Shown here piece after piece: positions 17,252-64,000 of a stretch of DNA of 64,000 nucleotides. Each line of letters opens with the position of its first letter. Positions within the stretch are counted from its first letter, which is position 1. Where the stretch lies: NCBI GenBank assembly GCA_025655455.1, contig JAHXIV010000028.1, positions 1-64,000 on the forward strand. The letters run 5' to 3'. The translations under genes were made by a program, and so were the position numbers. The notes under the pieces were generated by a model. It saw nothing but the letters and a program-made list of their open reading frames with translations. It was not told where the DNA came from and did no database searches. Origin of the DNA: a gamma proteobacterium symbiont of Taylorina sp. Its GTDB lineage: Bacteria; Pseudomonadota; Gammaproteobacteria; GRL18.

Positions 17252-17944
17252 ATGAAAATATTACTGATAGAAGATGATAAAAGCGTAGCTGAATTTATTA
17301 TAAAAGGCCTGATTGAAAAAAGTCATGTTGTTGACCATCGCCTGGACGGAAAAGAAGGCCTGTTCATGGCGACGACTGAAAGCTATGATGTTATGATTAT
17401 TGATCGTATGTTACCAGGTATTGATGGATTAACAATAATCAGGACATTGCGTGCCTCAAAAATCACGGCTTCTATTTTAATTCTTAGTGCGATGGCTGAT
17501 GTTGAACAGCGAGTAGAAGGTTTGCAAAGCGGTGCCGATGACTATCTGGTCAAACCATTTTCTTTTTCAGAACTGCATGCACGGGTTGAGATTTTAGGTC
17601 GTAGAAACAGCTCCAATGACTCACAGGTGACGGAGTTAATCGTTGCTGATTTAAAAGTAGATTTAATCAGCCATAAAGTAACTCGTTCCAGTCAAAATAT
17701 TGAGTTGCTGGCCACAGAATATCGACTCCTGGAATATCTGATGCGTCATGCGGGTCAGGTTGTATCACGTACCATGCTATTAGAGCATGTATGGGATTAT
17801 CATTTTGATCCGCAAACTAATGTGATTGATGTCCATATGAGTCGTTTAAGAAAAAAAATTGATAAACAATTTAATATTCCTTTAATACAAACAATACGTG
17901 GTTCCGGCTATGTCCTTAAAGTACCTGAGCCATCAGCTCAATAA
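17252..17944 (+). CDS. OmpR-family response regulator
   Basis: The ATG at 17252 gives 230 residues and places the receiver domain in register; a TTG 33 bases upstream is less likely. The receiver (1-115) has acidic pocket E7-D8-D9, phospho-acceptor D51 (MIIDRMLPGIDG) and the conserved KPF. The C-terminal winged helix (about 130-225) includes LLATEYRLLEYLMRHAGQVVSR, VIDVHMSRLRKKID and IRGSGYVL. It is of the CusR/CopR-like branch by appearance. It is divergent from the DUF2282 operon and followed by its kinase, so it likely controls that operon. Confidence 0.9.
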   Translation: MKILLIEDDKSVAEFIIKGLIEKSHVVDHRLDGKEGLFMATTESYDVMIIDRMLPGIDGLTIIRTLRASKITASILILSAMADVEQRVEGLQSGADDYLVKPFSFSELHARVEILGRRNSSNDSQVTELIVADLKVDLISHKVTRSSQNIELLATEYRLLEYLMRHAGQVVSRTMLLEHVWDYHFDPQTNVIDVHMSRLRKKIDKQFNIPLIQTIRGSGYVLKVPEPSAQ

Positions 17945-18046
17945 GAGCCTTCAGCAAATAAAATTTAGCCGCTGTCGCTTTGCAAACCTTTTTTTTACAA
18001 AAGAAGAAATTGCAAATAAGACGGGGGTAAAGTTTTATGTTTGATA
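17943..18046 (-). repeat. Full copy of a ~90-bp palindromic dispersed repeat
   Basis: The segment from agagccttcagcaaataaa through ccgctgtcgctttgcaaa and attgcaaataag to attttatgtttgataa-like sequence matches, on the opposite strand and along its whole length, the tandem units at 48362-48539. The copy fills the gap between the regulator and kinase genes. Its last bases, ttttatgtttgataat, supply the start codon and first codons of the kinase gene. Confidence 0.7.
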
Positions 18047-19407: not shown

Positions 19408-19506
19408 AACTAACTGAATCTTTAACCTAAATAAATCAGTTGAACCTACTGCAAACGTCCAATGCACTGAATCTTCAGCCCTTTTCTAAATTATTACCAG
19501 TACTTT

Positions 19507-48345: not shown

Positions 48346-48361
48346 TTTAATTCTCCTGTTT

Positions 48362-48539
48362 CTTATCAAACATAAAATTTTACCACTGCCTTATTTGCAA
48401 TTTAAATATGTTTGCAAAACGACAGCGGGCAGGTTTATTGGCTGATGGCTCTTATCAAACATAAACCTGCCCACTATCTTATTTGCAGGTGAAGATATTT
48501 GCAAAACGACAGTGGGCAGGTTTATTGGCTGATGGCTCT
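48362..48539. repeat. Two tandem ~88-bp units of a palindromic dispersed repeat
   Basis: Unit 1 (48362-48450) and unit 2 (48451-48539) share a start, CTTATCAAACATAAA, and a 42-base end that differs by one base (48411-48452 and 48498-48539). Across the units, ATAAACCTGCCCACT (48461-48475) and AGTGGGCAGGTTTAT (48511-48525) form a perfect 15-base inverted repeat. Other copies lie at 17943-18046, 17070-17088, 15175-15191 and 48978-48992. Confidence 0.85.
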
Positions 48540-48650
48540 AATACTCCTATTCTGACAAACTATTATAGACTTGGCAATCTTTACTTGACTAAAATGGTTG
48601 GTTATTATTAAATGTGCTTCAGGAGACCTCTGACATAGGAGAATATTAAT

Positions 48651-48971
48651 ATGCAGGAAATGAGTCCACAGCAAGTTTATGAATATTTGCAAACAACTAC
48701 TGAAAAACCATTGTTACTCGATGTACGGGAAAATTGGGAGTTTGATATTTGTCATATCGAAGACTCAGAACTGTTTCCAATGCATACCATTCCCGGTCAG
48801 TTGGATAAATTAGATCCTGATCAGGAAACGATTGTAATCTGCCATCATGGTATTCGCAGTCGTATGGTAGGACAATTTCTGGAACAGGCTCAGTTTAAGA
48901 ATATCATTAATCTTTCTGGCGGTGTGACTGCCTGGGCACAATCAGTTGATTCAAGTATGACAACTTATTAG
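48651..48971 (+). CDS. Single-domain rhodanese
   Basis: The 106-residue protein has LLLDVRENWEFDICHI and the active-site loop ICHHGIRSRM with a catalytic cysteine; the final NLSGGVTAWA motif is conserved. It transfers sulfane sulfur, for example to cyanide or thiols; the physiological acceptor is unknown. AGGAGA precedes the ATG. It stands alone between repeats. Confidence 0.9.
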   Translation: MQEMSPQQVYEYLQTTTEKPLLLDVRENWEFDICHIEDSELFPMHTIPGQLDKLDPDQETIVICHHGIRSRMVGQFLEQAQFKNIINLSGGVTAWAQSVDSSMTTY

Positions 48972-49004
48972 TGATCAAGAGCCTTCAGCCAAACTTGAAT
49001 TTGG

Positions 49005-49049
49005 CCACCATCATTTATAGTAATATTAAATTTCTATAAATGATGGTGG
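49005..49049. repeat. Perfect 16-bp inverted repeat after the rhodanese gene
   Basis: CCACCATCATTTATAG (49005-49020) and CTATAAATGATGGTGG (49034-49049) are perfect arms with a 13-base loop. There is no T-run after it. It follows a partial dispersed repeat (agagccttcagcca) and may function as a transcript end or mRNA stabiliser. Confidence 0.55.
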
Positions 49050-49089
49050 AATTGTTAAGTTACTTAGAAGTCGATATTAAAAACTCGGA

Positions 49090-49640
49090 GTATCAACAAA
49101 TTCCTACAAAATTATCCTGAAAACACTGACAGATAATATTTTTCATGTGCGTAAAATACATAATCAGTTACTTAATCAATAACAAATTCAGTAACACCTT
49201 AACCCGATGATCAAAACGCAAAGGAATTTATTATGAACAATATTAAAAACGGATTCAACGCACTGGCTTTAGCAGCAATGTTAGCTTTCTCAGGAGCGGC
49301 TTTTTCTTACAATTCACAGGAAATTAATATCAATACGGCAGATGCCCGGACAATATCTAAAAGTCTGAATGGTATTGGTTTAAAAAAAGCAGAAGCTATT
49401 GTGGCATGGCGCACCGAACACGGTACTTTTACAGAAACATCCAGTATTGAACAGGTTAAAGGCATTGGCCGGAAAACAGTAGAGAAAAATAAGGAATTTA
49501 TTCAATATTAAGTAATATGACAATGGATGCTCTTTCCAGGTGAAAACTCACTGGAGTATTCATTAATATTATCTGCAAAGTTTTTATTAAGGAAGACGTA
49601 TCAGATTTAACTGAATACGTGTGTACGCCAAGGATGGCTT
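49090..49640 (+). repeat. Left copy of a ~0.55-kb direct repeat with a comEA-like gene
   Basis: From atcaacaaattcctacaaaa to ccaaggatggctt this block matches 60878-61423. The gene is nearly identical in both. The upstream part (gtgcgtaaaatacataatca) and downstream part (gacaatggatgctcttt, gaatacgtgtgtacgcca) are also shared, with small gaps. The copies lie 11.8 kb apart in the same orientation. Confidence 0.85.
49233..49511 (+). CDS. Secreted ComEA-like helix-hairpin-helix protein, copy 1
   Basis: 92 residues: signal peptide (LALAAMLAFSGAAFSYN) followed by a double helix-hairpin-helix domain with ININTADARTISKSLNGIG, KAEAIVAWRTEHGTF and VKGIGRKTVEKN. Such proteins bind DNA in the periplasm; ComEA pulls DNA during competence. 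AAAGGAA gives the ribosome site. It differs from copy 2 at a handful of residues (here SQEI, R twice and E where copy 2 has AQET, Q, L and D). Confidence 0.85.
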   Translation: MNNIKNGFNALALAAMLAFSGAAFSYNSQEININTADARTISKSLNGIGLKKAEAIVAWRTEHGTFTETSSIEQVKGIGRKTVEKNKEFIQY

Positions 49641-49670
49641 CTCTCTTTCCCTTTGTCTTTACTAGAATAA

Positions 49671-49742
49671 AAGTATGAAGAACATGGATTTAGATATAGT
49701 AAAAAAGCTTATAAAGTTATTTTAGAGGAGCGAAAAAAATGA
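49671..49742 (+). pseudogene. C-terminal scrap of a toxin-like gene
   Basis: A 23-codon frame without a start reads KYEEHGFRYSKKAYKVILEE and stops with TGA overlapping the next ATG (ATGA). The sequence and overlap resemble the 3' end of a HigB/Gp49-like toxin gene preceding its antitoxin. The body of the gene is missing. Confidence 0.4.
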
Positions 49743-50017
49743 GTAATTTACAAAGTTTTGATAGTGTATGGGATGCTCTGGAAGATGACCCTATAATGGC
49801 AGAAAATATGAAACTTCGATCTACACTTTTGATAGCCATAATAAAAAATATTGAGAGTTCTAAACGAAATCAAACTGAAACAGCTTAGTTTTTAAATATT
49901 ACTCAACCTCGTGTCAGTTCACTTCTAAAAGGTAAAATTGAAGATTTTCGTCTTGATTCACTCGTAAATATTGCACATAGACTTGGTTTGCATATTGAGT
50001 TAAAAATTGCTGCATAA
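49739..50017 (+). pseudogene. XRE-type antitoxin gene with in-frame stop
   Basis: From ATG 49739 (AGGAG eight bases upstream) the frame reads MSNLQSFDSVWDALEDDP and continues, after a TAG at 49886-49888, as FLNITQPRVSSLLKGKIEDF to a stop at 50017. The second part is the recognition-helix region of HTH_37/HigA-like antitoxins (TQPRVS). The single nonsense codon splits the HTH, so the gene is probably dead, although a 49-residue product could still be made. Sequencing error at this one base cannot be excluded. Confidence 0.75.
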
Positions 50018-50280
50018 TAAATTTTTCTTCATGTGGCTTAAAAAATGAAGCGATAAAATGACTGATATCATTACAGAAAATCCTTATCACAATCCCCTCC
50101 CAGACAAGCTGTATACCTCAGTACTCACTTTGTACTTTACTGAAGCAGTATGCAGGATGAAAAATGTCTGTACTTAAGTTATAGTGTTATAACTATAAAA
50201 GGTTGGTTAAATTCATGGGATTTTATGAGAAAGAAATCGGCTAAGTTTATTATATTATTTTATAATCAAGGAGAATAGTT

Positions 50281-50508
50281 TTGGTGGATTATAGAACTCG
50301 AATTACTATTGAACCAGGAAAACGTTCAGGAAAACCCTGTATCAGGGGATTAAGAATTACAGTATATGATATTCTGAATATGTTGGCAGAAGGGATGAGT
50401 TATGATGAAATTATTGACGATTTTCCAAAAATAACCAAAGAAGATATTATGGCTTGTTTATCTTTTGCTGCAGAAAGAGAGCAAAACACATTTAGATTAA
50501 GTGCATGA
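50281..50508 (+). CDS. DUF433 antitoxin-like protein
   Basis: 75 residues matching DUF433: RITIEPGKRSGKPCIRGLRITVYDILNMLAEGMSYDEIIDDFP. These small proteins act as antitoxins to DUF5615 PIN-like toxins. Start at TTG 50281 or GTG 50284, both after AGGAG (50269-50273). The partner toxin is truncated to 12 codons. Confidence 0.8.
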   Translation: MVDYRTRITIEPGKRSGKPCIRGLRITVYDILNMLAEGMSYDEIIDDFPKITKEDIMACLSFAAEREQNTFRLSA

Positions 50509-50543
50509 GATTATTATTTGACAATAATTTGTCATACAAATAA
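50505..50543 (+). pseudogene. Truncated DUF5615 PIN-like toxin gene
   Basis: ATG 50505 overlaps the DUF433 stop (ATGA) and reads MRLLFDNNLSYK, the typical start of DUF5615 toxins (LLFDxNLS), then hits a TAA at 50541. No later frame restores the rest, so the toxin is gone and the DUF433 antitoxin is an orphan. Confidence 0.65.
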
Positions 50544-50654
50544 GAATTTGAGAATAATGATAAAGGACTTTTAGAAATAAATTGATTTTTTGGTTTAAGA
50601 AAAATAGTTTCATTGTGTAAATTTATAAAACAGTTAATAGTTGCAATACGTGCT

Positions 50655-50811
50655 GAGGTATACAGATTGATCTGTCTGGGGACGCTGTAAATACGTCCAT
50701 GTACGCTTAGGCTCGACATGATTGCCATGGACGGCAGAAATACACATGAGAGGCAGGATGCCGTAATTGCCCATGTCTCGCAAACCCCATCCAGACCAAC
50801 CTGTATACCTT
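50655..50811. repeat. Imperfect palindromic intergenic element
   Basis: The ends gaggtatacagattgatctg (from 50655) and ccagaccaacctgtatacct (to 50810) are inverted repeats of about 26 bases with four mismatches. The interior (atacgtccatgtacgctta, gattgccatggacggcag) has further hairpins. The right end plus the following ttactcactttgtacttt also occurs at 50102-50137. No coding capacity is seen in 50544-51007 otherwise. It looks like a MITE-like or structured repeat. Confidence 0.55.
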
Positions 50812-51007
50812 ATTACTCACTTTGTACTTTGTTTGATTCAGTGTTGTCTAAGAGCAGAAGTAAAATAAATTTGCTCTTAATTTTTTAATATTCATTTTGA
50901 GTAAATCTATGACAATTTAAATGAAGTTGACAATGGTAAATGTGAAGCAATTTTGTGTAAAATCCTATAGAATTTGCAACTACAACTAATTACTTATAAA
51001 ACTATAA

Positions 51008-52516
51008 ATGAAACAATATGAAGATGTAACACCAAATCCAGAATATTTGATTAAATCAATTGCCGAGCAAGGATATAGCCTAGAATCGGCTTTAGCAGAT
51101 TTAATGGATAACTCAATATCAGCTAATGCAGATAAGATAGAAGTATTGATAAAAATGGATGGAGATCCATTCACTTTATTTTTGGCTGATAATGGGGATG
51201 GGATGTCTGAAAGTGAGTTAAAAGCCAATATGCATTTTCCGAGTAATTCACCAGATGAAATTAGAAATAATTATGATCTGGGTAGATTTGGGCTTGGCAT
51301 GAAAACAGCTTCATTCTCTCAGACTAGAAGGTTCACGGTTCTCTCTAGAGAAGAAAACAAATCAGAATATAATGGAAGAACGTGGGACTTAAGTATTTTA
51401 AAAAATAATAAATGGCAAATAATTGTCAATACGCAAGAAGAAATTGAAAATTTAGTTAATGAATATAATGAACAGAGCAAAGAACACCTAAATAGTTTTG
51501 ACAACTATGATGCAAATACAATTGTTATTTGGTCTGGGTTATATAAATATGAAGACTATCTTGAGGAAAAAAACCGAAAAACTGCATTAAAAAGGGAAAT
51601 AACAGAAGTAACAGTTGATCATCTATCACTTGTATTTCATCGGTTTATGGAAAAAAAGAATAAACCTCTTAATATTCGCGTAAATAATGTTCGACTAAAA
51701 CCATTTAATCCTTTCCCAACTCAAGAGAAAGATCTTCGTTCTGTTGAATTTAAACAAAAAAAATTTGGTACAGATTCTATCAAGTTAGAAGGATTTGTTT
51801 TACCCTCAAGAAGTATTGAGGAGTCAAAAAAAAATATTACCCATTGGACTACACGATATCGTAGTCTTACAGATATGGAAGGTATTTATATTTATAGAGC
51901 TAATCGAATAATTTCATTTGGTGGATGGAATGGTATTGTAAAAAAAGCACCTCGGCTTCAACTGGCCAGGCTTAGGGTTGAAATTGGTAATAGTGTTGAT
52001 CATCTTTTACATTTAAATGTTTCCAAATCACAGGTAATTATTCCTCATGATTTAAAGGATGCTTTTGAAAATTATATCAATGATTTAAAAGATGAGGCAA
52101 CCAAAGAGTTCTACAATAGAAATATAAAACGGTTTCCAACGAAGAAAGAAAAAAAATTCAGTCTATTTTCAAGGTGTGCATCAAATAAAGGGATGTTGGT
52201 AGAAATAAATAATGAATTTCCAATTTTGCAAGAGCTGAAGAAGGAACTCTCTCAATCTGCACAAGCAAAATTAAATTTTTTGTTAAAGATGATTAATGCT
52301 CAAATTAACACAATAAGACAAACTCATGAAGATAAGGTATTTCTAGGATTAGAAAATAGTAATGAAATTTCTAAAGATGAAATACTTCTCACAATAAAAA
52401 GCCTAATGGACAATGGCTATGATGCTAAGCTAATTAAGAATGAAATCTTACCTAAAATTGGTTATAAAATTAATACGTTCCCAAAAGTGATTCTAGAGGT
52501 ATTAAATGACAAATAG
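51008..52516 (+). CDS. MORC/MutL-like GHKL ATPase of a defence cassette
   Basis: 502 residues. The N-terminal ATPase has the N box ESALADLMDNSISANA, G1 box DNGDGMSESEL and G2 box GRFGLGMKTASFSQ, followed by an S5-like fold region. The C-terminal half is lysine-rich and helical. GHKL ATPases of this kind occur in restriction-linked operons described by comparative genomics of MutL/MORC homologues. It is the first of four overlapping genes; no clear ribosome site precedes the ATG. The DNA is visibly more AT-rich than the chromosome around it. Confidence 0.85.
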   Translation: MKQYEDVTPNPEYLIKSIAEQGYSLESALADLMDNSISANADKIEVLIKMDGDPFTLFLADNGDGMSESELKANMHFPSNSPDEIRNNYDLGRFGLGMKTASFSQTRRFTVLSREENKSEYNGRTWDLSILKNNKWQIIVNTQEEIENLVNEYNEQSKEHLNSFDNYDANTIVIWSGLYKYEDYLEEKNRKTALKREITEVTVDHLSLVFHRFMEKKNKPLNIRVNNVRLKPFNPFPTQEKDLRSVEFKQKKFGTDSIKLEGFVLPSRSIEESKKNITHWTTRYRSLTDMEGIYIYRANRIISFGGWNGIVKKAPRLQLARLRVEIGNSVDHLLHLNVSKSQVIIPHDLKDAFENYINDLKDEATKEFYNRNIKRFPTKKEKKFSLFSRCASNKGMLVEINNEFPILQELKKELSQSAQAKLNFLLKMINAQINTIRQTHEDKVFLGLENSNEISKDEILLTIKSLMDNGYDAKLIKNEILPKIGYKINTFPKVILEVLNDK

Positions 52517-55500
52517 AGATTTTATTGATCAAATAAATATATTTTTACAAAATCTTTTTAATAATGAAAAAGAAAATAAAGGTTTTGTGGGAAGAGAATT
52601 TTATGAATCAGCATCTCTTAAGCTAAAAATAAAAGAAACATTAGATTCAATGTCTAATCTTGGTACTTTTCCAGAAATAAATAATGATAAATTCAATAAA
52701 TGTTATGAAGTTTCGATTAAAGAAATGCGACATCAAAATCAACAGGGTATGACTCCCAGTTGTTCTCTTTCTAATGAAAAAACAAAGAAAAATATATGGC
52801 TTACATCAGATAAAATTGAGCAACTTGGATGGAATAATGATGAGTTAATTACCTATAGAACAAGATATATTAGATATTTAAAAGAAATAGGGCGTTCAAA
52901 AAATTATATTGATGAAACAAAAAAGTCAAGCTTAGAAATAGTTAAAAAAATTGGAAATCCTCACTCAGAATATGAGTTTTTTACAAGGGGATTAGTTGTA
53001 GGTAGTGTTCAGTCAGGTAAAACAGCAAACTTTAATGCAGTAATAAATAGTGCTATTGATGTTGGTTATGGTTTGATAATAGTTCTATCTGGTATCATGG
53101 AAGATTTAAGAAAACAGACACAAAAAAGAATAGAGAAGGAGGTTGAAGGTAAATATATAGCTGGAAGATTTATTGGTGTAGGCTCTATTTCTTCTTTTGG
53201 CCCTATCGGAGAACACAAAGATGTAAATCAAATTTATGTTCCAACATCTACCGAAACAGATTTCAAGAAAACAATAAAAGAAGCTGATTTTTCATTAAAT
53301 AATATAAATATATTAATATGTAAAAAAAATACTAGTGTTTTAAAGAACCTTATTTTTTGGTTAGACAATTACTTAAATGTGAACAAGGATAAAATTGAGG
53401 TACCTTTTTTAATTATTGATGATGAAGCAGACAATGCTTCACTAAATAATCTGGGGCATAAAGGAATAGAGTATGCCTCTACAATTAATGGACATATTCG
53501 TTCATTATTGGCATTATTCAAAAAGAAAACATATATAGGTTACACTGCAACACCTTTTGGAAATGTTTTGCAAGATAGAAATAAAAAGTCTGTGAACGGG
53601 TGGACTATAAAAGATTCAGGTGAAAATAAAATTTTTGAGCAAGAATCTAGCTTATTTCCGCATGATTTTATTGAGTTGTTATTTCCTCCGCCAAATTATA
53701 TTGGAGCAAAGCATTTTTTTGAAACAAGATTAAATGAGATAAAAAAAATTGATCCACTTGTTCCTCTGGCTATTGATGACTACCTGGAGGCATTTCCACC
53801 AAGAATATATACAGATTCAGGCTTACCGACAACTATGATGGGTAAAGGGACTCGGGCAACAAAAAAAGATGATCCGTTTCCAAGATTTATTCCAGATTCA
53901 TTAAAAGAGGCTGTGATCTGTTTTGTTATCTCTACGGCAATTAGAATTAGTAGAAAACATGACATATTCCAGTCAAAGTTCTATCAGCCTCACAATACAA
54001 TGCTTATTCATATTTCACGTTTTACATTTTGGCAAAATCGAACAAAAGAACTGATTCAAAAATATATTGATAGTTTAACTCATGATTTAAATAATGATTC
54101 TTTAAGTGGCAAAAATTCAATATATACTAATTTTGAAAAAATTTGGAATAAACATTATTTCTATATAATTAAAAATATTTGGGATTATTTACCTGAAGAT
54201 TATGAAGATGACTTTTTGCAAGCTAAGAAATTTGAAGAAATTAAACCGCTACTTATCACAGCCATTGCCAATATAGAAGTAAAGGCAATAAATAGTGAGA
54301 CAAAGGATTTTCTTTTTTATCCAGATGATAGTGAAAAAAAATATATTGCTATTGGGGGTAATCGACTATCTAGGGGATTTACCTTAGAAGGACTCACAAT
54401 AAATTACTTTATACGTAATACTAATTTTGCAGATACTCTTTTACAAATGGGGAGATGGTTTGGATATCGTCCAGGATATATTGATTGTTGTAAATTATTT
54501 TCAACTCAAGATGCTCTGGATAAGTTTGATCAAACAACAGCAACGATTGAAGACCTAGAACAAAAATTTATTGAAATGAATAAAGAGCATAAAACGCCTG
54601 ATAAATATGCACTTAGAGTACTCTTACACCCAGGAGTATTGAAAATAACTCGACCTTCTATTTTAAAAAATACAAAACAAGTTAATTGGTCTTATTCTGA
54701 CCATCTAATTCAAACAACTAAGTTTGTTATCAATAAATTACAGATTGAAAATGCGTGGAAGCATTTTTCGTTACATATTGAAAAAATAAAAGATAAATTT
54801 GACATAAGATATGATGCGAATAATAAGCCTGATTATCTTGAATATCAAATTGAGGATATAAATGACTTATTTGAATTTTTTAATCTCCCCAATACATTTT
54901 ATGATCCAACTGATAAAGATGGTAATTATTTTTTAGGCCTAGAACAGTATATAAAACTTTGTAATGAACAAGAAAAACTTACAAAGTGGTCGATAGCTGT
55001 AAAAGTTTCTGGATCTGGAGCGGAAATTAATAGTTGTGATTCTGGATTACCTATTAATATCACAAAATCTATAAGGAGTGGAAGTAAACTAGGATCTCGC
55101 TGGTCAAATGAGTTGCTTCATAATCATGTTTTTGCTGCAGGAGGAGGATCGTCCAATATCTCTGGTAGTGAAAAAGATATGCAAATTAGATTAGAGCCTT
55201 CAGAAATTGTAACAGCAACAAAAGAATTTAAAATACAGTTGTTTAAAGATCTTAAAAATAAATACAAAGAGCTTTCAGATAATGCTATTCAAAAGAAAGT
55301 AAATAAAACTAAAGTCCCTGAAAAAATATTCCGAAAGCGTATGAGTGAAGAAGAAGGTGTATTGGTTATATATCTAATGGATTTAGAGTCAATTTTTAAA
55401 TATAAAAATCAAGATGTACATGAGTTGAATAAAATAAAAAGTACACTGGATACAAGTATTCCCTTGGTTGGGTATGTTATTGGAATTCCGGAAATTCAAA

Positions 55501-55598
55501 GTAATATTGGTGGAAATTATCTAGAAAGTATCTCTCAAGAGGAAGAAAGTGGCTTTGAATATGATGAGTTTGATGATTATAAAGAGATTTTAGAATGA
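52506..55598 (+). CDS. Z1 domain ATPase/helicase-like protein
   Basis: 1030 residues. Superfamily 2-type motor motifs are visible: Walker A GSVQSGKTANFNAV (about residue 165), LIIDDEADNASL, YIGYTATPFGN, and RLSRGFTLEGL with QMGRWFGYRPGY. The Z1 domain is characteristically found with MORC-like ATPases, PD-(D/E)XK proteins and DNA methylases. It probably remodels or translocates on DNA for the nuclease. It overlaps the ATPase gene by 11 bases and the next gene by four. Confidence 0.88.
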   Translation: MTNRDFIDQINIFLQNLFNNEKENKGFVGREFYESASLKLKIKETLDSMSNLGTFPEINNDKFNKCYEVSIKEMRHQNQQGMTPSCSLSNEKTKKNIWLTSDKIEQLGWNNDELITYRTRYIRYLKEIGRSKNYIDETKKSSLEIVKKIGNPHSEYEFFTRGLVVGSVQSGKTANFNAVINSAIDVGYGLIIVLSGIMEDLRKQTQKRIEKEVEGKYIAGRFIGVGSISSFGPIGEHKDVNQIYVPTSTETDFKKTIKEADFSLNNINILICKKNTSVLKNLIFWLDNYLNVNKDKIEVPFLIIDDEADNASLNNLGHKGIEYASTINGHIRSLLALFKKKTYIGYTATPFGNVLQDRNKKSVNGWTIKDSGENKIFEQESSLFPHDFIELLFPPPNYIGAKHFFETRLNEIKKIDPLVPLAIDDYLEAFPPRIYTDSGLPTTMMGKGTRATKKDDPFPRFIPDSLKEAVICFVISTAIRISRKHDIFQSKFYQPHNTMLIHISRFTFWQNRTKELIQKYIDSLTHDLNNDSLSGKNSIYTNFEKIWNKHYFYIIKNIWDYLPEDYEDDFLQAKKFEEIKPLLITAIANIEVKAINSETKDFLFYPDDSEKKYIAIGGNRLSRGFTLEGLTINYFIRNTNFADTLLQMGRWFGYRPGYIDCCKLFSTQDALDKFDQTTATIEDLEQKFIEMNKEHKTPDKYALRVLLHPGVLKITRPSILKNTKQVNWSYSDHLIQTTKFVINKLQIENAWKHFSLHIEKIKDKFDIRYDANNKPDYLEYQIEDINDLFEFFNLPNTFYDPTDKDGNYFLGLEQYIKLCNEQEKLTKWSIAVKVSGSGAEINSCDSGLPINITKSIRSGSKLGSRWSNELLHNHVFAAGGGSSNISGSEKDMQIRLEPSEIVTATKEFKIQLFKDLKNKYKELSDNAIQKKVNKTKVPEKIFRKRMSEEEGVLVIYLMDLESIFKYKNQDVHELNKIKSTLDTSIPLVGYVIGIPEIQSNIGGNYLESISQEEESGFEYDEFDDYKEILE

Positions 55599-56569
55599 TA
55601 ACTTCAAATGATTTAGATAATATATGGAAAACATTTATTTATTCGGGGGGTAGTGAATTTGAATTTTTAAGACTTGATAGTGGGATTTCCATTCCTGAGA
55701 TAAATATAGGTTTAAATTCGAAACATAACAGATGTCTACTGCTAGAATTGCCAAAAAATCATAATGTTGATTTTCAAACAACCATTAAACAAAATTTAAC
55801 TCTAAGCTTCTTTTATGATACAGATTACATCGTTTTAGAATTAACAGAAAGTGTATATTGTGATCTTTTTAATGATCTCATTATTTCTATATATCAGAAA
55901 ATATATTTAATGTCTGATGTAGATGAATATTCAAAAATATTTATTAGAATGTTTTATAAATGGAGTGAATTTTTTATTGAGGAAAAAACTGATAAATTAT
56001 CTCAAGGTATGATTAAAGGTTTATTTGGAGAATTATTTGTATTAAAAAATTTAATACTGGAAACAAACTCATCACATTTAAATGATGTGCTGAACTCGTG
56101 GAAGGGACCATTTGATGAAGGCCAAGATTTTATATTAAATAAAAAAAATATTGAGGTTAAATGTAAGAATTTATCAACTTTAAATATAAAAATATCCAGT
56201 GAATACCAACTTGAATCTGAAGATGGAAAGGTATTAGAGTTGTTGGTTTTATCTTTGGAAAACAATCCTATTGATGGTCAACCCTTAAGTTTATTACTTG
56301 CAGAGGTAAAAGAATTAGTCATAAATAAACTTGGAGATTATTCAATAATATTAGAGGCTCTTTCTCAAAAAAATATCACACAACATAATATTTTTCAATA
56401 TGACAACTTTCGTTTTCAAGTTCTTGAACAAATTATTTATAATTGTAATGAAGATTTCCCAAAACTTCTTAATTCAAATACCCCAAAAGAAATTAATAAT
56501 ATTAAGTATACATTGGGACTAAGTCACTTAAATGAATTCATTTTATCCATAAAAAAATTCGATGAATGA
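55595..56569 (+). CDS. PD-(D/E)XK motif protein (DUF4420-like)
   Basis: 324 residues. The nuclease-like core has KGLFGELFVLKNLI, then DEGQDFILNKKNIEVKCKN, matching the D-(x)n-ExK pattern with Q-D-F and E-V-K. This is the likely DNA-cutting subunit of the cassette. The ATG overlaps the Z1 stop (ATGA), and the stop overlaps the AIPR start by eight bases. Confidence 0.8.
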   Translation: MITSNDLDNIWKTFIYSGGSEFEFLRLDSGISIPEINIGLNSKHNRCLLLELPKNHNVDFQTTIKQNLTLSFFYDTDYIVLELTESVYCDLFNDLIISIYQKIYLMSDVDEYSKIFIRMFYKWSEFFIEEKTDKLSQGMIKGLFGELFVLKNLILETNSSHLNDVLNSWKGPFDEGQDFILNKKNIEVKCKNLSTLNIKISSEYQLESEDGKVLELLVLSLENNPIDGQPLSLLLAEVKELVINKLGDYSIILEALSQKNITQHNIFQYDNFRFQVLEQIIYNCNEDFPKLLNSNTPKEINNIKYTLGLSHLNEFILSIKKFDE

Positions 56570-58442
56570 TATAGAAGAACGTATAGAATTTAGAAGCACT
56601 CTGCTTGATGATTCACGGGATGATGAAGGGTTTATTTCGCCATCAAACTTACTATCTCAAATAATGCCATCTCTTCTGGATGCAAAATTAGTAGACTCTG
56701 AAGACTATACTGAAGCTTACTATACAAATGAATATGAGAATATACAAATTAATGCATATTCTATAAACGAGTCAGGAGAACGGCTCCAATTGTTCATTGT
56801 TGATGAAGATACTATTAATGAAAAGTCAGATTTAGTAGAGTTATTAATATCACAAAGAGTGGAGTATGAAAATCAATTCAAACGCGCAGAAAGAATTATA
56901 AAAAAAGCATTTAAGGGTAAGTTATTTGATTCTATTCAAGATTCAAGTAATGTGAAAGTATTAGCCTCAGAATTGGAATCTATTGAAGGGTTTGTAAAGT
57001 TTGATGTTATAGAAATATTTTTAATATCTTTAACTGCAACGGTTTCTTTTAGAGGAAATACGACTCAACCAAATAAAATATATTTTAAAGAAAATAAAGT
57101 TACCAGAACATATATAAGTGATAGAAAAAAAGAACAAAAAGAAATTCTTTTTTTAAAAAGACTTGTTGATTTGAATTTTCTTTTTGATGTTATGGTTTCT
57201 CGCGGTCATAGAGAAGTTTTGACTATTGATTTTGAAAAAACATTTAATTGTAGTATAGAAGTACTGAAGGCAGCTGAAGAGAAAAAATTTGAATCTTATT
57301 TATGTGTTATAGGTGCTGATATGTTATCTGAATTGTATAAGCATTATAGTAGTAGATTACTAGAAAAAAATGTACGTTCATTTTTACAATTTAGAGGTGT
57401 TAATTCTGGAATAAGGCAAACAATAAAAAATGAACCTGAGAAATTTATTGCTTATAATAATGGCCTTACAATTACATCAACTGAAGCTAAAACATTTGAA
57501 AGAAAGCGGAAGTTATATATAAAGTCACTTAAAGACTTTCAAATTGTAAATGGTGGTCAAACTACTGCGGCGATTTATTTTTCTAAAAAAGAGGGGGTAG
57601 ATGTAAGTAAGGTTAAAGTCATGGCAAAAATTAACGTTACAAAACAATCAAATGATAAAGAATTAGAGGAACTCATCAATAATATTAGTAAATTCTCCAA
57701 TGCTCAATCAAGAGTGTCAAAAGTTGATTTGAGATCTAGAAATCCACAACTTATAAAAATAAAAACATTAAGTGAAAGAATTCTTACGCCCAGTGGTAAC
57801 AAATGGTTCTTTGAGCGTTCTAAGGGTGAGTATAACACTTTGTTAAGAAAAGCCGGTAGTAACAAAGCTAGGATAAAAAAAGAATATCCTAATATTCGAC
57901 GTTTCTCAAAAGAGCAGATGGCAAAATTTTATTCTGCTTGGGGTGATGAACCTTATTTAGTGAAAAAAGGTGGGGAAAAAATTTTTAGGCACTTTATTGA
58001 AAAACTTAGTCCGGAAGAGCCAGTAATATCTCCAGTGATTGACAGAGAATATTATGAGGATTTGATCTCTAGAATAATCCTATTTAGAAAAATGGAAAAG
58101 GTTCATGGGCAAGGTAAAAATGCTATTGGTCAAATTAGGGCTGCAGTTATTCCTTATTCTCTTTCAGTACTTTATCAATATACTAGTGGCTCAAATATGA
58201 AATTTGATATGTCAAAAATATGGATGTACGAAAGTTTAGAAGATGATTTGGAAAAATTCCTATATGATCTTATGTTTTTGATGAATGATCTAATTAAACA
58301 ATATTCTTCAAGTGATGATTATGGTGAATATTCTAAAAAACCTGAGCTCTGGAATAGTATAAAAAATTGTAATCAAATAAAATTATTTATGAATACGTCA
58401 AATAGCCAAATGATTTTGAAAAAATATAGAGTTTGTATTTAG
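56562..58442 (+). CDS. AIPR family (abortive infection/phage resistance) protein
   Basis: 626 residues. The AIPR signature is seen around residues 300-345: EPEKFIAYNNGLTITS and KDFQIVNGGQTTAAIYF, followed by KVMAKINVT and a conserved ISKFSNAQSRVSKVDLRSRNP. AIPR proteins are linked to phage resistance, probably as nucleases or effectors. Fourth and last gene of the plus-strand operon. Confidence 0.85.
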   Translation: MNDIEERIEFRSTLLDDSRDDEGFISPSNLLSQIMPSLLDAKLVDSEDYTEAYYTNEYENIQINAYSINESGERLQLFIVDEDTINEKSDLVELLISQRVEYENQFKRAERIIKKAFKGKLFDSIQDSSNVKVLASELESIEGFVKFDVIEIFLISLTATVSFRGNTTQPNKIYFKENKVTRTYISDRKKEQKEILFLKRLVDLNFLFDVMVSRGHREVLTIDFEKTFNCSIEVLKAAEEKKFESYLCVIGADMLSELYKHYSSRLLEKNVRSFLQFRGVNSGIRQTIKNEPEKFIAYNNGLTITSTEAKTFERKRKLYIKSLKDFQIVNGGQTTAAIYFSKKEGVDVSKVKVMAKINVTKQSNDKELEELINNISKFSNAQSRVSKVDLRSRNPQLIKIKTLSERILTPSGNKWFFERSKGEYNTLLRKAGSNKARIKKEYPNIRRFSKEQMAKFYSAWGDEPYLVKKGGEKIFRHFIEKLSPEEPVISPVIDREYYEDLISRIILFRKMEKVHGQGKNAIGQIRAAVIPYSLSVLYQYTSGSNMKFDMSKIWMYESLEDDLEKFLYDLMFLMNDLIKQYSSSDDYGEYSKKPELWNSIKNCNQIKLFMNTSNSQMILKKYRVCI

Positions 58443-58444
58443 AA

Positions 58445-58470
58445 AAAATCCTATTTTTATAGGATTTTAT
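58445..58470. terminator. Bidirectional terminator between AIPR and the methylase gene
   Basis: AAAATCCTAT and ATAGGATTTT are perfect 10-base arms (58445-58454, 58459-58468) with a TTTT loop; A-runs and T-runs flank it, so it can act in both directions. The methylase stop codon lies across the loop. Confidence 0.8.
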
Positions 58471-60028
58471 AAATTATTTCAGCAATTGAATGAGCTAATA
58501 ATGGTGGAACTGCATTCCCAACCTGAACATATTGTTGAGTTCGAGTTCCAACAAAAAAATAATTATCAGGGAAAGTCTGTATTCTTGCTGCTTCTCTAAC
58601 TGTAAAGCTACGACATTGTAGCGGATCTGGATGGATGAAGTAATGACCATCTTTTGAAATATGACATGTAATTGTTGTCGCAGGTATGTTCCATGGTTGA
58701 ACTCTAAATCGATCTGAAAATTTTCCAGATTGAAAATTTTTGTGATTTGGCATCAGCTCAACTGGATAATCTTTTGATTTCGGGCTGAGTGAGTCGCATC
58801 CTTTACTATAAGCAACTTTTGCCCAGATGCTGCAAAATAAATACCTTTGTAAATCAGATGATATATGTCCTCTTGTTTCATGGTTACATATGTTTTGTCC
58901 TAATTTTTTATCATAATACCAATTTTCTAGATTTGCTTTACTCATACTTTGGTTATGTTTTAGGCCAAAATTATAACCTTGTCTCTGTTTAGGAGCTTGT
59001 AGAACTGTCATTATGTTTTCAAATTCTTTGGCAATATCATTTTTTGAGGTTTTCTTTAAAGCTTTAATTGTATTTTTAGCTTGGGATTTAATTGTTTTTA
59101 ACCAGTTATTATCATTGTTTTGTTCTTTTGACAAACCGCTTCGTAATTTAGGTAGGTCATTTATTACATCTACAACAGAAATATTTTCTTGCTTGTTAAG
59201 AATAAATTTATTATTCCACTTGTGAGTATGATCTTCGCGTATTCCTAATAGAATTACTCTATGACGACGTTGAGGTATACCAAAATTTTCACTTTTGATA
59301 ACAAAATCATTAGGTTTAATTTTTTTATTATCATCAACTGGAGTTACTAAAGAAAATATTTTATATTTATGTTTTGATTTATTTCTTCTGGGTTCAGTGT
59401 TAACTGCTTTGCAGGGGTCATGTAAATCATTAAAAATAGTTTCATATATAGATACACCATCAACTTTTGCTGATAACATGCCTTTGACATTTTCCATTAC
59501 AAATATCGTTGGTTGAAATAATGCAATTATCTTCAGATATTCTTTAAATAGAAAGTTCCTATGATCCTTTTCAGCACGATAGTCTTTTATACCTTTATTT
59601 CTTGCTCTACCCGCCAGAGAATACGCTTGGCACGGTGGGCCACCAATAAGGATACAATCCTTATCTCCCAGTGCGTTGTTGATTTTTTCAGTGATCATTT
59701 CATTATCTTTGCCAAGCTCCAGCTGTTGTGCTTCACTACATGCCTGTTTTAGTTCATTTGCATATTTTGGAAGACGATATAATCTATCTTCGGGATAATT
59801 TCCAAATTCTCCTTTTAGAAAACTATAATATTCAACAGGTTTATTATCATCAGAAAATTGGCGAAAAAATGAGCGTAGTTTTAAAGTTCTGTGAGCACTG
59901 CCTTCTTTTTCAATAGAGATGGCAATTTTAAATGGGTGATAACCCTTTTTATTTTTGAAAGAAGAAAAACCTTCGCCAAGTCCGCCTGGTCCAGCGAAAA
60001 GGTCGATTATTTTGATTGGTGAGTGCAT
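58457..60028 (-). CDS. DNA (cytosine-5) methyltransferase
   Basis: The start is taken at ATG 60028 (MHSPIKIIDLFAG), about 523 residues; a TTG 42 bases upstream is possible. Motif I IIDLFAGPGGLGEGF, motif IV GGPPCQAYSLAGRARNKG with the catalytic Cys, motif VI VMENVKGML, motif VIII QRRHRVILLG and motif X QVGNAVPPLLA are intact. An insert between motifs I and IV makes it longer than Dcm. It should protect host DNA; its target sequence is not predictable. It converges on the ATPase-Z1 operon and diverges from vsr. Confidence 0.92.
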   Translation of the reverse strand: MHSPIKIIDLFAGPGGLGEGFSSFKNKKGYHPFKIAISIEKEGSAHRTLKLRSFFRQFSDDNKPVEYYSFLKGEFGNYPEDRLYRLPKYANELKQACSEAQQLELGKDNEMITEKINNALGDKDCILIGGPPCQAYSLAGRARNKGIKDYRAEKDHRNFLFKEYLKIIALFQPTIFVMENVKGMLSAKVDGVSIYETIFNDLHDPCKAVNTEPRRNKSKHKYKIFSLVTPVDDNKKIKPNDFVIKSENFGIPQRRHRVILLGIREDHTHKWNNKFILNKQENISVVDVINDLPKLRSGLSKEQNNDNNWLKTIKSQAKNTIKALKKTSKNDIAKEFENIMTVLQAPKQRQGYNFGLKHNQSMSKANLENWYYDKKLGQNICNHETRGHISSDLQRYLFCSIWAKVAYSKGCDSLSPKSKDYPVELMPNHKNFQSGKFSDRFRVQPWNIPATTITCHISKDGHYFIHPDPLQCRSFTVREAARIQTFPDNYFFVGTRTQQYVQVGNAVPPLLAHSIAEIIYKIL

Positions 60029-60096
60029 ACTATGAATAAAATAGATTAATGTAACATTGCATTCTACCAAGAAATGAAATATAAACCAGGTTTTTT

Positions 60097-60552
60097 ATGG
60101 ATATAATTTCTAAAAATAAAAGATCAAAAATGATGAGTTCAATAAAAAATAAAGGAACTTGTCCAGAAATTGCTGTTAGAAAAAAACTATTTCATTGTGG
60201 TTATAGATATCGTAAAAATATGAAAGTAGAAGGATTCTATCCTGATATTATTCTACCAGGAAGAAAAATTGCGATTTTTGTTCATGGTTGTTTCTGGCAT
60301 CAGCATGAAGGATGCAAACTTGCATATTTTCCAAAGTCAAATATTGAAAAATGGAAGAATAAATTTAAATTAAATAAAACTCGTGATTTTAATGCACATA
60401 TGACGCTTAAAGTAAGTGGTTGGCGCATAGCAACTATTTGGGAGTGTGCCACTCGTAATGAAAAAATACTTAAGTTTACAATAAGTGAACTTTGTAAATG
60501 GATTGAAGGTGAACTTGATGAGTTTGATTCAAGTGAAATTTTGGAAGTTTAA
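60097..60552 (+). CDS. vsr: Very short patch repair endonuclease Vsr
   Basis: 151 residues with the complete Vsr pattern: KMMSSIKNKGTCPEIAVRKKL, GFYPDIILPGRKIAIFVHGCFWHQHEGC and GWRIATIWECA. It nicks beside T:G mismatches made by deamination of 5-methylcytosine and so belongs with the C5 methylase 69 bases away on the other strand. The ATG is preceded by CAGG. Confidence 0.93.
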   Translation: MDIISKNKRSKMMSSIKNKGTCPEIAVRKKLFHCGYRYRKNMKVEGFYPDIILPGRKIAIFVHGCFWHQHEGCKLAYFPKSNIEKWKNKFKLNKTRDFNAHMTLKVSGWRIATIWECATRNEKILKFTISELCKWIEGELDEFDSSEILEV

Positions 60553-60568
60553 TCCAGTACAACTATAA

Positions 60569-60838
60569 ATCAATTATATTTACCCAATCATAGCTGTAGA
60601 ACAAAAAAGACGAATAGAACTCACTAAAGATCAGACAGGAACAGATAAAATCAAAGATTCTGATAAAATATACTGGTTGTTTAAATTGGGTACAGCACTG
60701 AAATTAAAACCCCCTGTTATAAAAACAACGGTGCGTCGCTTTGAAGTAAAGTTGACCAGTGCGGCGGCTTTATCTGATATTAAACTTTGGTCGGAATTGC
60801 CGCAAAGATACTCTCTGTTGGGGAATGTTTTTGAATAA
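60569..60838 (+). pseudogene. 5'-truncated gene X (3' fragment of unknown gene)
   Basis: A 89-codon open frame without a start codon contains AVEQKRRIELTKDQTGTDKI and VKLTSAAALSDIKLWSELPQ and ends LLGNVFE. Its last codons and the first ~10 codons of a following gene are repeated at 62671-62761, directly before the uracil-DNA glycosylase. So X originally preceded that gene, overlapping its start. After the stop here a TTG frame (NKVILQSQL) is the remnant of the glycosylase N terminus, ending at about 60860. I do not recognise the X family. Confidence 0.6.
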
Positions 60839-60877
60839 AGTGATATTGCAGAGCCAGTTATATTCAGAAAGCAAAAC

Positions 60878-61423
60878 TATCAACAAATTCCTACAAAATC
60901 TGACAATAAGCACTGACAGATTAAATTTTTTATGTGCGTAAAATACATAATCAGTTACTTAATCAATTAAAGATAAATGTAACAAAACAATTAATTTAAA
61001 CATAAAGGAATTTATTATGAAAAATATTAAAAACGGATTCAACGCACTGGCCTTAGCTGCAATGTTAGCTTTCTCAGGAGCGGCTTTTTCTTACAATGCA
61101 CAGGAAACAAATATCAATACGGCAGATGCCCAGACAATATCTAAAAGTCTGAATGGTATTGGTTTAAAAAAAGCAGAAGCTATTGTGGCATGGCGCACCG
61201 AACACGGTACTTTTACAGAAACATCCAGTATTGATCAGGTCAAGGGAATTGGTCTGAAAACAGTAGAGAAAAATAAGGAATTTATTCAATATTAAGCGAT
61301 TTGACAATGGATGCTCTTTCTTAGTGAAAACTCACTGTAATATCAATTAATAATATCTTCAACGTTATAAGAAGGAAAACGTATCAGCTATCACTGAATA
61401 CGTGTGTATGCCAAGGATGGCTT
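60878..61423 (+). repeat. Right copy of the ~0.55-kb comEA direct repeat
   Basis: Matches 49090-49640 in the same orientation; begins at atcaacaaattcctacaaaa and ends at ccaaggatggctt. The junction to the preceding glycosylase remnant (60860-60878) is where a tandem duplication would have joined. Confidence 0.85.
61017..61295 (+). CDS. Secreted ComEA-like helix-hairpin-helix protein, copy 2
   Basis: 92 residues, same signal peptide and double HhH domain as copy 1 (NINTADAQTISKSLNGIG, KGIGLKTVEKN). The differences from copy 1 are few substitutions and no indels. Both copies keep an open frame and the same AAAGGAA ribosome site, so both may be expressed. Confidence 0.85.
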   Translation: MKNIKNGFNALALAAMLAFSGAAFSYNAQETNINTADAQTISKSLNGIGLKKAEAIVAWRTEHGTFTETSSIDQVKGIGLKTVEKNKEFIQY

Positions 61424-61484
61424 TAAATATTACTTATTATATGTTTTTATTGCTAAAGTGTAAATTGGAAGCTAATATAACAAT

Positions 61485-62630
61485 ATGCATATTATAAATA
61501 GAAGCATTGATCAGACCATTAAAAAAAGATTGCAAAATAACCCTGTTGTGGCGATTCTTGGTCCCAGACAATGTGGTAAATCAACCACAGCGCTCAATTT
61601 ATTAAAAGCCTATCCTAACTCGATTTATCTGGACTTAGAGAAAAAAACAGAACGGGCAAAATTAAATGATATCTGGGCTTTTTTTAATGCCAATAAAAAT
61701 AAACTCATTTGTTTTGACGAGATTCAACTCTTACCTGAAATTTTTTCACAAATGCGCTCATTTGTTGATGAAAATAAGTTCAATGGTCAATTTCTAATTC
61801 TTGGATCTGCCTCCAGAGATCTCATTCAGCAAGGCTCTGAAAGTCTAGCAGGAAGGATCTCCTTTATTGAGATGACCCCCTTTGAATTTTGTGAAGTCTC
61901 AGACAAAGTAAGTTACAAAGAATTGTGGCTTAAGGGAGGATATCCCAGAAGCCTGCTGCAAGGTGATATAGAAGAAAGCTTTAACTGGCGTGAAAATTAT
62001 ATCAGGACTTTTTTAGAACGGGATATTCCTCAGCTTGGTTTTAGAATACCAGCTAGAGTACTGGAACAATTCTGGACTATGCTGGCACACACACAGGGGC
62101 AGCTGATTAATTTATCAAAATTAGGGACTTCTCTAGGTGTTACTCATCATACTATTAAGAATTATCTCAGCATTTTGGAGGAAACTTTTGTTATTAGGCT
62201 GCTTACACCTTACCGTACTAATTTAAAAAAACGCCTCATCAAGTCACCAAAAGCTTATATTCGTGATACCGGAATTGTTCATGCCTTATTAAATATTGAA
62301 GACTTTAACAGCTTATTGGGGCACCCGGTTTATGGTTTTAGTTTTGAAAGTTTTGTCATTGAAAATCTGATTCGGCATTATCCAAAACATCAGCCTTCAT
62401 TTTACAGAACAGCAACGGGTGATGAAATTGACCTGCTTCTTGAAAGAGGGAATGAACTTCTGGCATTTGAAATAAAAGCGGCAACAGCCCCTAAAGTGGA
62501 AGATGGGTTCTGGAAGAGTATCGATGCACTAAAGCCGGATAAGGTGTTTATTATTGCCCAGGTTGAGTCATCATATCCTTACCTGGGTGATATTTGGGTT
62601 TATAATATAGAAGAATTTCTTAGGCTTTAA
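61485..62630 (+). CDS. AAA_14/DUF4143 ATPase
   Basis: 381 residues. Walker A GPRQCGKST at residues 27-35, Walker B LICFDEIQLLPEI, sensor LILGSASRDLIQQGSESLAGR, and a C-terminal DUF4143 domain with GFSFESFVIENLI and TGDEIDLLLERG...FEIKAA, which looks like a PD-(D/E)XK-type D-ExK core. The role of this common family is unclear; members are frequent in accessory regions. It sits between two exact copies of gaatacgtgtgtatgcca (61396-61413 and 62633-62650), which may be the edges of its insertion. Confidence 0.88.
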   Translation: MHIINRSIDQTIKKRLQNNPVVAILGPRQCGKSTTALNLLKAYPNSIYLDLEKKTERAKLNDIWAFFNANKNKLICFDEIQLLPEIFSQMRSFVDENKFNGQFLILGSASRDLIQQGSESLAGRISFIEMTPFEFCEVSDKVSYKELWLKGGYPRSLLQGDIEESFNWRENYIRTFLERDIPQLGFRIPARVLEQFWTMLAHTQGQLINLSKLGTSLGVTHHTIKNYLSILEETFVIRLLTPYRTNLKKRLIKSPKAYIRDTGIVHALLNIEDFNSLLGHPVYGFSFESFVIENLIRHYPKHQPSFYRTATGDEIDLLLERGNELLAFEIKAATAPKVEDGFWKSIDALKPDKVFIIAQVESSYPYLGDIWVYNIEEFLRL

Positions 62631-62670
62631 CAGAATACGTGTGTATGCCAGTAAAATTATTGGATAATAA

Positions 62671-62739
62671 GCTGCTGATGTTAATCTTTGGTCGGAATTA
62701 CCACAGAGATACCTGCTGTTGGGGAAAGTTTATGAATAA
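62671..62739 (+). pseudogene. Second 3' fragment of gene X
   Basis: After an in-frame TAA at 62668 the frame reads AADVNLWSELPQRYLLLGKV and ends at 62739, overlapping the glycosylase ATG by eight bases. It matches the end of the fragment at 60569-60838 and shows the ancestral gene X-glycosylase coupling. Confidence 0.6.
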
Positions 62740-63379
62740 AAATGCATTGCAGAAGCAGTTACAACGGCATCAGAATCATCTTGAACAATGCAGCTTATGT
62801 CCACAAATGTTTGGTCCGCCTGTTCATGGCTTAGCTGCAGTATCAAAAGTGATGTTAATTGGTCAAGCTCCCGGCTTTAAAGAAATTGAAGTTTTACGTC
62901 CCTTTGCCTGGACAGCAGGTAAAAAATTATTTTCCTGGTTTGAAGCTATTGGTATGGATGAGAGAAATTTTCGAAAACTTGTCTATATGTCCGCTATTTG
63001 TCGATGTTATCCGGGCAAGAAAATAGCCAGGCAAAAATCCTCACAGAAAACTAAAGCTCATGGTGACAGAGTACCGAATAATAATGAAATCAAGCATTGC
63101 TCCCAATGGTTAGCTGCTGAGATAGCTATTCTGAAACCGGAGTTAATTATTTTAGTGGGTAAATTAGCCATCAGTCAGTTTATGAGTTTTAAAAAATTAG
63201 ATGAAGTGATTGGCAAGCTGCATAAAATAAATAACAATGGTTTTGAATGCGATGCCATTCCTTTGCCGCATCCATCAGGTGCATCAACATGGCCTGTTAC
63301 AGAGCCGGGAAAGACTTTATTACAATACGCTATGATGCATATCAAAAAACATCCAGCCTGGATTCAGCTAAAACATTAA
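62732..63379 (+). CDS. Uracil-DNA glycosylase family protein (family 4/5-like)
   Basis: Starting at ATG 62732 (GGGGA eight bases upstream) the protein has about 215 residues. Features: CSLCPQMFGPP near the N terminus, the water-activating motif LIGQAPGFKE with the RPFAWTAGKKLFSW helix, CRCYPGK (further Fe-S-type cysteines), LIILVGKLAI, and the DNA-intercalating PLPHPSGAS. It removes uracil from DNA. A link to the nearby C5 methylase (deamination damage) is tempting but not needed. Confidence 0.85.
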   Translation: MNKNALQKQLQRHQNHLEQCSLCPQMFGPPVHGLAAVSKVMLIGQAPGFKEIEVLRPFAWTAGKKLFSWFEAIGMDERNFRKLVYMSAICRCYPGKKIARQKSSQKTKAHGDRVPNNNEIKHCSQWLAAEIAILKPELIILVGKLAISQFMSFKKLDEVIGKLHKINNNGFECDAIPLPHPSGASTWPVTEPGKTLLQYAMMHIKKHPAWIQLKH

Positions 63380-63425
63380 TCTCAAGGATGGCTTTCAATT
63401 TTTTTTCTATTAAATAAGGAACTAT

Positions 63426-63828
63426 ATGAAATATTCTGTTGATCCCACAGTTGATTGTGTTTTTAAAGCCATTGTTGGTTCTAATGAACATATTGACTTA
63501 CTTTTAAGTCGTGTTTCATGATTTTTCCGGCTTTCATAGTCATTTTGGTTGGTATGATGAGAAAAACAGGTTGAAATTAACAGAACATGCTAATATACAT
63601 ATTATAGAGCTTAATAAATGGGATAAATCACAGGTAGAGAATGATTTAGATCGATGGACTCGTTTTTTTAGAGAGGGAAAAGATCTCAATAATGCTCAAC
63701 TACCCAATTTTTGGGATGATCAAATAGCAACTACACCAATAGCATTGGGTCAAGTTCTGGCCATCCATCGAAAAAAAAGCTTTCTCTTTGCACCAAATCG
63801 GTTCATTTTCGATCTAAAACTTCCATAA
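63426..63828 (+). pseudogene. Internally deleted Rpn/PD-(D/E)XK transposase-family gene
   Basis: ATG 63426 opens a frame MKYSVDPTVDCVFKAIVGSN that stops at 63521. An overlapping frame from 63511 continues with FHDFSGFHSHFGWYDEKNRL and HIIELNKWDKSQVENDLDRW, both typical of this family. The catalytic middle (the D and ExQ/ExK region of about 80 residues) is deleted, and the C-terminal end is replaced by an unrelated short tail. Confidence 0.7.
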
Positions 63829-63951
63829 TTAAAAAAATAGTCTAGAATTCTTATTTTATCTAATTGATATATAATGTTATTTTGTTTTGGTATCTATATT
63901 GCTAGAAGAAGTAATCTATTTAAATTCAGATCCCACCGGAGCTATAAGCAT

Positions 63952-64000
63952 ATGCTGTTTGGACGTAGTAAAAAAAATCCGATTAAAATTGCCGATAAGA
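63952..64000 (+). CDS. Start of an unidentified gene cut by the window end
   Basis: ATG 63952 preceded by GGAGC opens a frame MLFGRSKKNPIKIADK that runs off the window. Too short to identify; the basic start suggests a cytoplasmic or peripheral membrane protein. Confidence 0.35.
   Translation, partial: MLFGRSKKNPIKIADK

Follow-up and report, generated by a model that had tools for sequence, protein, structure and literature searches.

The window, i.e. the whole stretch of 64,000 nucleotides that was analysed, contains a tandem duplication whose unit starts upstream of comEA and ends at about codon 10 of the uracil-DNA glycosylase gene (udg). We put the probability at roughly 0.7 that the duplication is an ordinary one, specific to the lineage, in a region of gain and loss of defence genes. 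The locus begins with a rhodanese gene (48651-48971), comEA copy 1, a low-GC relic stretch and the genes MzaB-C-D-E. A cytosine methyltransferase gene on the other strand, a Vsr gene, the first tail of a gene called X and the first udg start follow. The last part is composed of comEA copy 2, an AAA_14-DUF4143 ATPase gene, the second X tail, the intact udg and a remnant of the PDDEXK_2 transposase family. The repeated parts are listed here.

49091-49640, + strand: comEA block copy 1, with upstream region, comEA and a downstream region ending in the short sequence S; 88.1% identical over 555 bp to 60878-61423
49233-49511, + strand: comEA copy 1, encoding a 92-aa ComEA-like helix-hairpin-helix protein, 93% identical to the copy 2 protein
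60575-60838, + strand: gene X tail copy 1, the C-terminal 87 residues of a putative McrC-like (DUF2357-PDDEXK_7) protein, the rest of which is missing
60831-60877, + strand: udg 5' fragment of about 10 codons, with TTG in place of ATG, and the hybrid joint (60861-60877)
60878-61423, + strand: comEA block copy 2, with comEA at 61017-61295 and an HHH_3 match in the protein
62651-62739, + strand: gene X tail copy 2, decayed by a 4-bp deletion and stops; its last codons hold GGGGA and the udg ATG
62732-63379, + strand: intact uracil-DNA glycosylase superfamily gene (udg), 215 aa, PF03167 at 6.1e-26

The X-udg junction, which an earlier note on this DNA had located at 60785-60860 and again at 62686-62761, was found exactly there, with 61/76 bases identical and no gap. 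The second-best placement of the 60785-60860 query within 48600-64000 gave only 35/76 bases. A repeat search extended the junction to 60774-60860 and 62675-62761 (80% over 87 nt), and local alignment of the X-udg regions scored 89 against a maximum of 25 among 500 shuffles. The homology of X reaches leftward to 60575 in copy 1 (88 codons) and to about 62651 in copy 2, where the 4-bp deletion and in-frame stops are located. The comEA repeats reported in the same note are also real, with 88.1% identity over 555 aligned bases between 49091-49640 and 60878-61423. The comEA frames of the two copies differ at 12 codons (dN 0.028, dS 0.125), and both are still open, with a dN/dS of about 0.23. The span 60569-62761 takes in both X tails together with the udg start truncated in copy 1, the second comEA copy and the DUF4143 gene.

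The comEA block followed by the X-udg 5' end is present twice, the two being adjoining and in the same order and orientation. At the hybrid joint, udg codons ~1-10 pass into the upstream region of comEA. The tandem duplication proposed earlier is therefore upheld, because the repeated order and the hybrid joint are the expected trace of a head-to-tail duplication. The divergence was comparable in both parts, with 14/97 differences in the comEA upstream region and 17/87 in X-udg (Fisher p 0.43). A single duplication event fits, since the two parts are similarly diverged. The divergence of 12-20% between the non-coding copies speaks against a duplicate created by the assembly. Separate copying of the X-udg junctions and the comEA blocks, by gene conversion or short template switches, would agree with the shortness of the repeats and with the entirely different segments between them. 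However, the two parts share order, orientation, one joint and equal divergence, and this route is considered very unlikely. A near-perfect palindrome (49005-49049; folding z -6.36 against shuffles) was observed between the rhodanese gene and comEA copy 1, about 41 bases left of the left edge of the duplication. Other repeats are also found in the window. Two adjacent stretches of ~935 nt (31490-32424 and 32510-33447), 75% alike, form a second tandem duplication. A tandem array of 36-nt units at 19505-19817 has copies 60-74% like the reference, and interspersed repeats of ~95-107 nt in both orientations (48361-48542, 15102-15203 and 17941-18047) are possibly small mobile elements.

The open stretch of X at 60575-60838 begins 22 bases past the Vsr stop. 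A HMMER search (E <= 0.01) of 96 genomes of relatives, own genome included, gave X matches in two, the own genome and G020, which belongs to the same family. The tail aligns to residues 693-777 of a 782-aa G020 protein (L049:1483-3831), at the C-terminus of a long frame, with 39% identity over X residues 1-85 (E 4.4e-9). This alignment scored 35.0 bits, against at most 7.0 for shuffled tails (107 hits reported from 200 shuffles). The G020 protein possesses DUF2357 (2.5e-54) and PDDEXK_7 (2.6e-36), and its gene lies 15 bases behind an AAA_5-like gene. In PADLOC, the AAA protein was assigned to PDC-M26A (7.6e-37) and its partner weakly to PDC-M26B. McrC is described in PMC11090510 as a DUF2357 domain (with PF04411) fused to a PD-(D/E)XK nuclease. 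Because the tail matches a DUF2357-PDDEXK_7 protein encoded beside an AAA gene, the best reading of X is that of a remnant of an McrC-like gene, and not of a host gene or a working member; the tie runs through a single full-length homologue, via a C-terminal extension outside both Pfam domains. The 'gene X' may thus be explained as the scar of a defence gene. Since X would be such a remnant, the duplicated unit appears to have carried defence cargo already before the duplication.

The X tail alone matched no Pfam family, and both the DUF2357 and PD-(D/E)XK domains are absent from it. No match was obtained in plasmid records or in genome contigs, and the tail is absent from three aligned plasmid-borne DUF2357 proteins (of 8 plasmid records found). 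A two-row X profile matched one of the 369 genomes of the class, the own genome. The full-length G020 protein gave no match in 24 genomes, among which there is no positive control. The matching stretch is ruled out as a widespread repeat, the X tail occurring at two places of the own genome at E <= 0.001. A third match in the own genome (E 0.146, C49) corresponds to a semialdehyde dehydrogenase frame.

The order comEA-X-udg had been taken as an ancestral one, and the relatives do not bear this out. A lack of adjacency of gene X and the glycosylase in relatives had been named in the earlier note as a refutation, and this lack does count against an order shared with relatives. With the own genome included, udg occurs in 8/24 genomes and comEA in 16/24; the udg orthologues within the genus are 71-77% identical. 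The two genes lie apart in the genus members examined, with ~93 kb between them on one contig of G005, and no X was detected in genus relatives (HMMER, 96 genomes). X, the G020 protein and comEA were also compared by tblastn with the loci fetched from L034 onward, among them 17 named udg loci extended by as much as 6 kb per side, and neither X nor comEA was found beside udg outside the own genome. The tblastn search is too weak for the X-G020 pair; HMMER, which recovered that pair, is the basis for taking X as absent in relatives. In six relatives, inspection by eye of the 250 bases ahead of udg revealed no X-like end. In five comEA loci of relatives, comEA lies behind a gene of 581-596 aa, which is an ABC transporter gene in the one tested. 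An empty site was also sought via the left flank, and none was found: comEA lies beside the rhodanese gene in 0/7 relative loci, and the 300 bases behind the rhodanese gene of relatives have no visible relation to the window. A genus-wide comEA-X-udg order is ruled out, as udg and comEA are not neighbours and X is absent in relatives; the comEA-X-udg unit was not found in the relatives examined, either un-duplicated or in any other form. The arrangement is thus peculiar to the own lineage, and its origin and its duplication both postdate the separation from the sampled relatives. No literature on this locus was found. The PDDEXK_2 transposase-family remnant behind udg lies at 63511-63828, and a piece 82% identical to it adjoins comEA in G008 (L044), where the relative orientation is reversed.

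The segments inside the two copies carry different cargo, as had been stated earlier.

49641-51007, no strand assigned: low-GC relic stretch, with frames at 49739-50017 and 50281-50508
51008-58442, + strand: MzaB, MzaC (Z1), MzaD (DUF4420) and MzaE (AIPR), an MZA-type defence system by Pfam and PADLOC; GC 25-31%
58457-60070, - strand: C5 cytosine DNA methyltransferase, PF00145 at 1.3e-46
60097-60552, + strand: Vsr-type very short patch repair endonuclease, PF03852 at 3.3e-25, Vsr in PADLOC
61485-62630, + strand: AAA_14-DUF4143 ATPase, the cargo of copy 2, PF13635 at 3.9e-48 and PF13173 at 3.3e-28, PADLOC candidate PDC-S01 at 8.9e-86

The homologues of MzaB, C, D and E were detected in order by PADLOC with E values of 2e-46, 1.2e-90, 2.1e-11 and 2.3e-60. 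In the relic stretch, the frame at 49739-50017, presumably antitoxin-like, is broken by an in-frame TAG, and the 75-aa frame at 50281-50508 is one which we take to be DUF433-like. The content of the two copies thus stands as claimed, with MzaBCDE-methyltransferase-Vsr in copy 1 and the DUF4143 ATPase in copy 2. The claim that defence genes were gained only after the duplication does not stand in full, as the McrC-like cargo would predate it. The GC content of the Mza-dcm-vsr block is 25-32%, against 36-38% for comEA, the X tail, DUF4143 and udg. This low GC fits a later arrival in copy 1; the block may either have arrived after the duplication or have been in the unit and then been lost from copy 2. 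No trace of either cargo beyond chance was found in the other copy (best E 0.084 for protein and 0.11 for DNA).

The same cargo bears on a merodiploid origin. In that case, a circular or linear piece from a sister species, bearing comEA, cargo, X and the udg 5' end, would have recombined by homology with the resident copy, and the two cargos would have been different from the outset. The strongly different GC of cargo 1 and the lack of anything detectable in common between the cargos suit this origin, and the dS of 0.125 could equally be the divergence of close species. On the other hand, the same illegitimate joint between truncated udg and the comEA upstream region must first arise in the donor molecule, and no extra donor is required, given the like divergence of X tails and comEA flanks. 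Besides, no mobility genes except the transposase-family remnant are found among the annotated genes of 48-64 kb. This origin is therefore regarded as rather unlikely.

For a duplication within the lineage, a course of four steps can be proposed. At first, an McrBC-like restriction operon would have lain between comEA and udg, with the end of its mcrC-like gene (X) overlapping the udg start (ATGAATAA); an mcrB-mcrC operon is the putative source of X. Second, a head-to-tail duplication from ~140 bp upstream of comEA to about udg codon 10 would have created the joint at 60861-60877. Third, both X copies would have been trimmed to their 3' ends; the Mza-methyltransferase-Vsr block would thereby have come to adjoin X at 60575 in copy 1, and the DUF4143 gene with a piece of comEA tail to adjoin X at 62651 in copy 2. 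Fourth, the X tail before the intact udg would have been kept, at least partly for the ribosome-binding-like sequence and start of udg. The repeats, the joint, the identity of the parts and the lack of the arrangement in relatives are shown, whereas the first and third steps and their order are inferred, as are the source of X and the reason for its retention; no outgroup fixes the order of events.

The fourth step concerns the small overlap of the two genes. The stop of X is overlapped by the udg start (GGGGAAAGTTTATGAATAA), and GGGGA just ahead of the udg ATG is likely a ribosome-binding sequence. Although X is broken in copy 2, some 20 codons at its end remain well preserved (LWSELPQRYLLLGKVYE; copy 1 has LWSELPQRYSLLGNVFE). 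The X end plausibly persists in copy 2 for the sake of udg, because these last codons contain the putative ribosome-binding GGGGA and the start of udg. This points to the possible survival of part of a restriction gene when a housekeeping gene draws its start region from the end of that part.

S (GAATACGTGTGTAYGCCAAGGATGGCTT) closes each of the two comEA blocks; its left 18 bases recur exactly behind DUF4143 and its right 12-13 bases recur behind udg.

49613-49640, + strand: S1, GAATACGTGTGTACGCCAAGGATGGCTT, end of the repeated comEA block
61396-61423, + strand: S2, GAATACGTGTGTATGCCAAGGATGGCTT, end of comEA block copy 2
62633-62650, + strand: S3, the left part of S2 repeated exactly over 18 bp, directly past the DUF4143 stop
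63383-63395, + strand: S4, the right part of S2 repeated over 13 bp, 4 bases past the udg stop; moderate evidence only

An exact 18-bp repeat accordingly flanks the DUF4143 gene on both sides (61396 and 62633). In the 4.5-Mb genome, GAATACGTGTGTAYGCCA (up to 3 mismatches) has three copies and CAAGGATGGCTT (exact 12-mer core) also has three, all of them here and on the same strand. The 18-mer is beyond chance, with 3e-5 expected per genome and 17 as the longest repeat in 100 simulated sequences. The 13-mer S4 is not compelling, as ~34 repeats at least 12 nt long would be expected in 15 kb of sequence, although the expectation for this particular GC-rich 12-mer is 0.001. Across 24 genomes, S-like words gave three two-mismatch hits outside the own genome against two control hits, which is the chance level. 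The exact repeats S3 and S4 need an extra event beyond the duplication model.

One candidate for that event is that S (GAATACGTGTGTATGCCAAGGATGGCTTT) is a recombination or insertion site, where a DUF4143 cassette left the 18-bp repeat on both sides and a further S copy, now split into S3 and S4, took up X-udg. The exact 18-bp repeat around DUF4143, its low genome expectation and the confinement of all three copies to this locus argue for it, and the end of the left half in S3 and the start of the right half in S4 meet at the same point of S, with CA in common. However, the S in the comEA blocks was inherited with the duplication, which leaves only S3 and S4 as independent; a repeat of 13 nt is common in 15 kb, S-like words outside the own genome stay at the chance level, and no recombinase gene is seen adjoining S. 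On balance, this origin is improbable. Very improbable is a broader form, in which S would be an attachment-like site behind comEA that captures single defence genes (the DUF4143 ATPase, X-udg) as cassettes and is regenerated at their boundaries, so that comEA-S arrays collect cargo. Integron cassettes with attC sites, prompted by the repeated boundaries, were set aside, as RNA from three S regions folds no better than shuffles (z -1.20, -0.86 and 0.61).

The S repeats are read as marks of further insertion or deletion beside comEA, which do not by themselves make a site-specific hotspot; S is at most a candidate for a true recombination site. The insertion hotspot claimed earlier is supported only in part and is not shown as such: the short repeats (61396/62633, and more weakly 63383) hint at repeated breakage, and they do so at one locus of one genome only. 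The same flanks with different cargo were not found across genomes, comEA and udg being adjacent in no relative examined. Should the S repeats prove to be sites of recombination, it would become possible to test a simple cassette route for defence genes. As it stands, the locus represents ordinary genome turnover.

The locus resembles three known systems. The X tail is like McrC of the McrBC type IV restriction system in that it aligns with the C-terminus of a DUF2357-PDDEXK_7 protein encoded beside an AAA gene. It differs from McrC in comprising 87 C-terminal residues in copy 1 and about 30 frame-shifted codons in copy 2, with no DUF2357 or nuclease domain. The cargo of copy 1, with MzaB-E, a C5 methyltransferase and Vsr, resembles the MZA and paraMORC restriction neighbourhoods; the theme of such a neighbourhood with a superfamily II helicase, a cytosine methylase and Vsr is treated in PMC2292703. 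Plasmid sets of the same make-up (MzaB-E, methyltransferase and Vsr) are found on p42f of Rhizobium etli and on the Agrobacterium plasmid pDG3-1d. The plasmid-borne MZA sets of Thalassospira and Neorhizobium start with a sigma-70-like gene. In contrast, no ORF of that size is present before mzaB in 49640-51007, and the methyltransferase gene lies on the other strand, behind mzaE, unlike in the known MZA sets. Finally, the locus has in common with lineage-specific tandem duplications in defence islands the head-to-tail repeat, the hybrid joint and the turnover of cargo, and the short S repeats are its only special feature beyond these.
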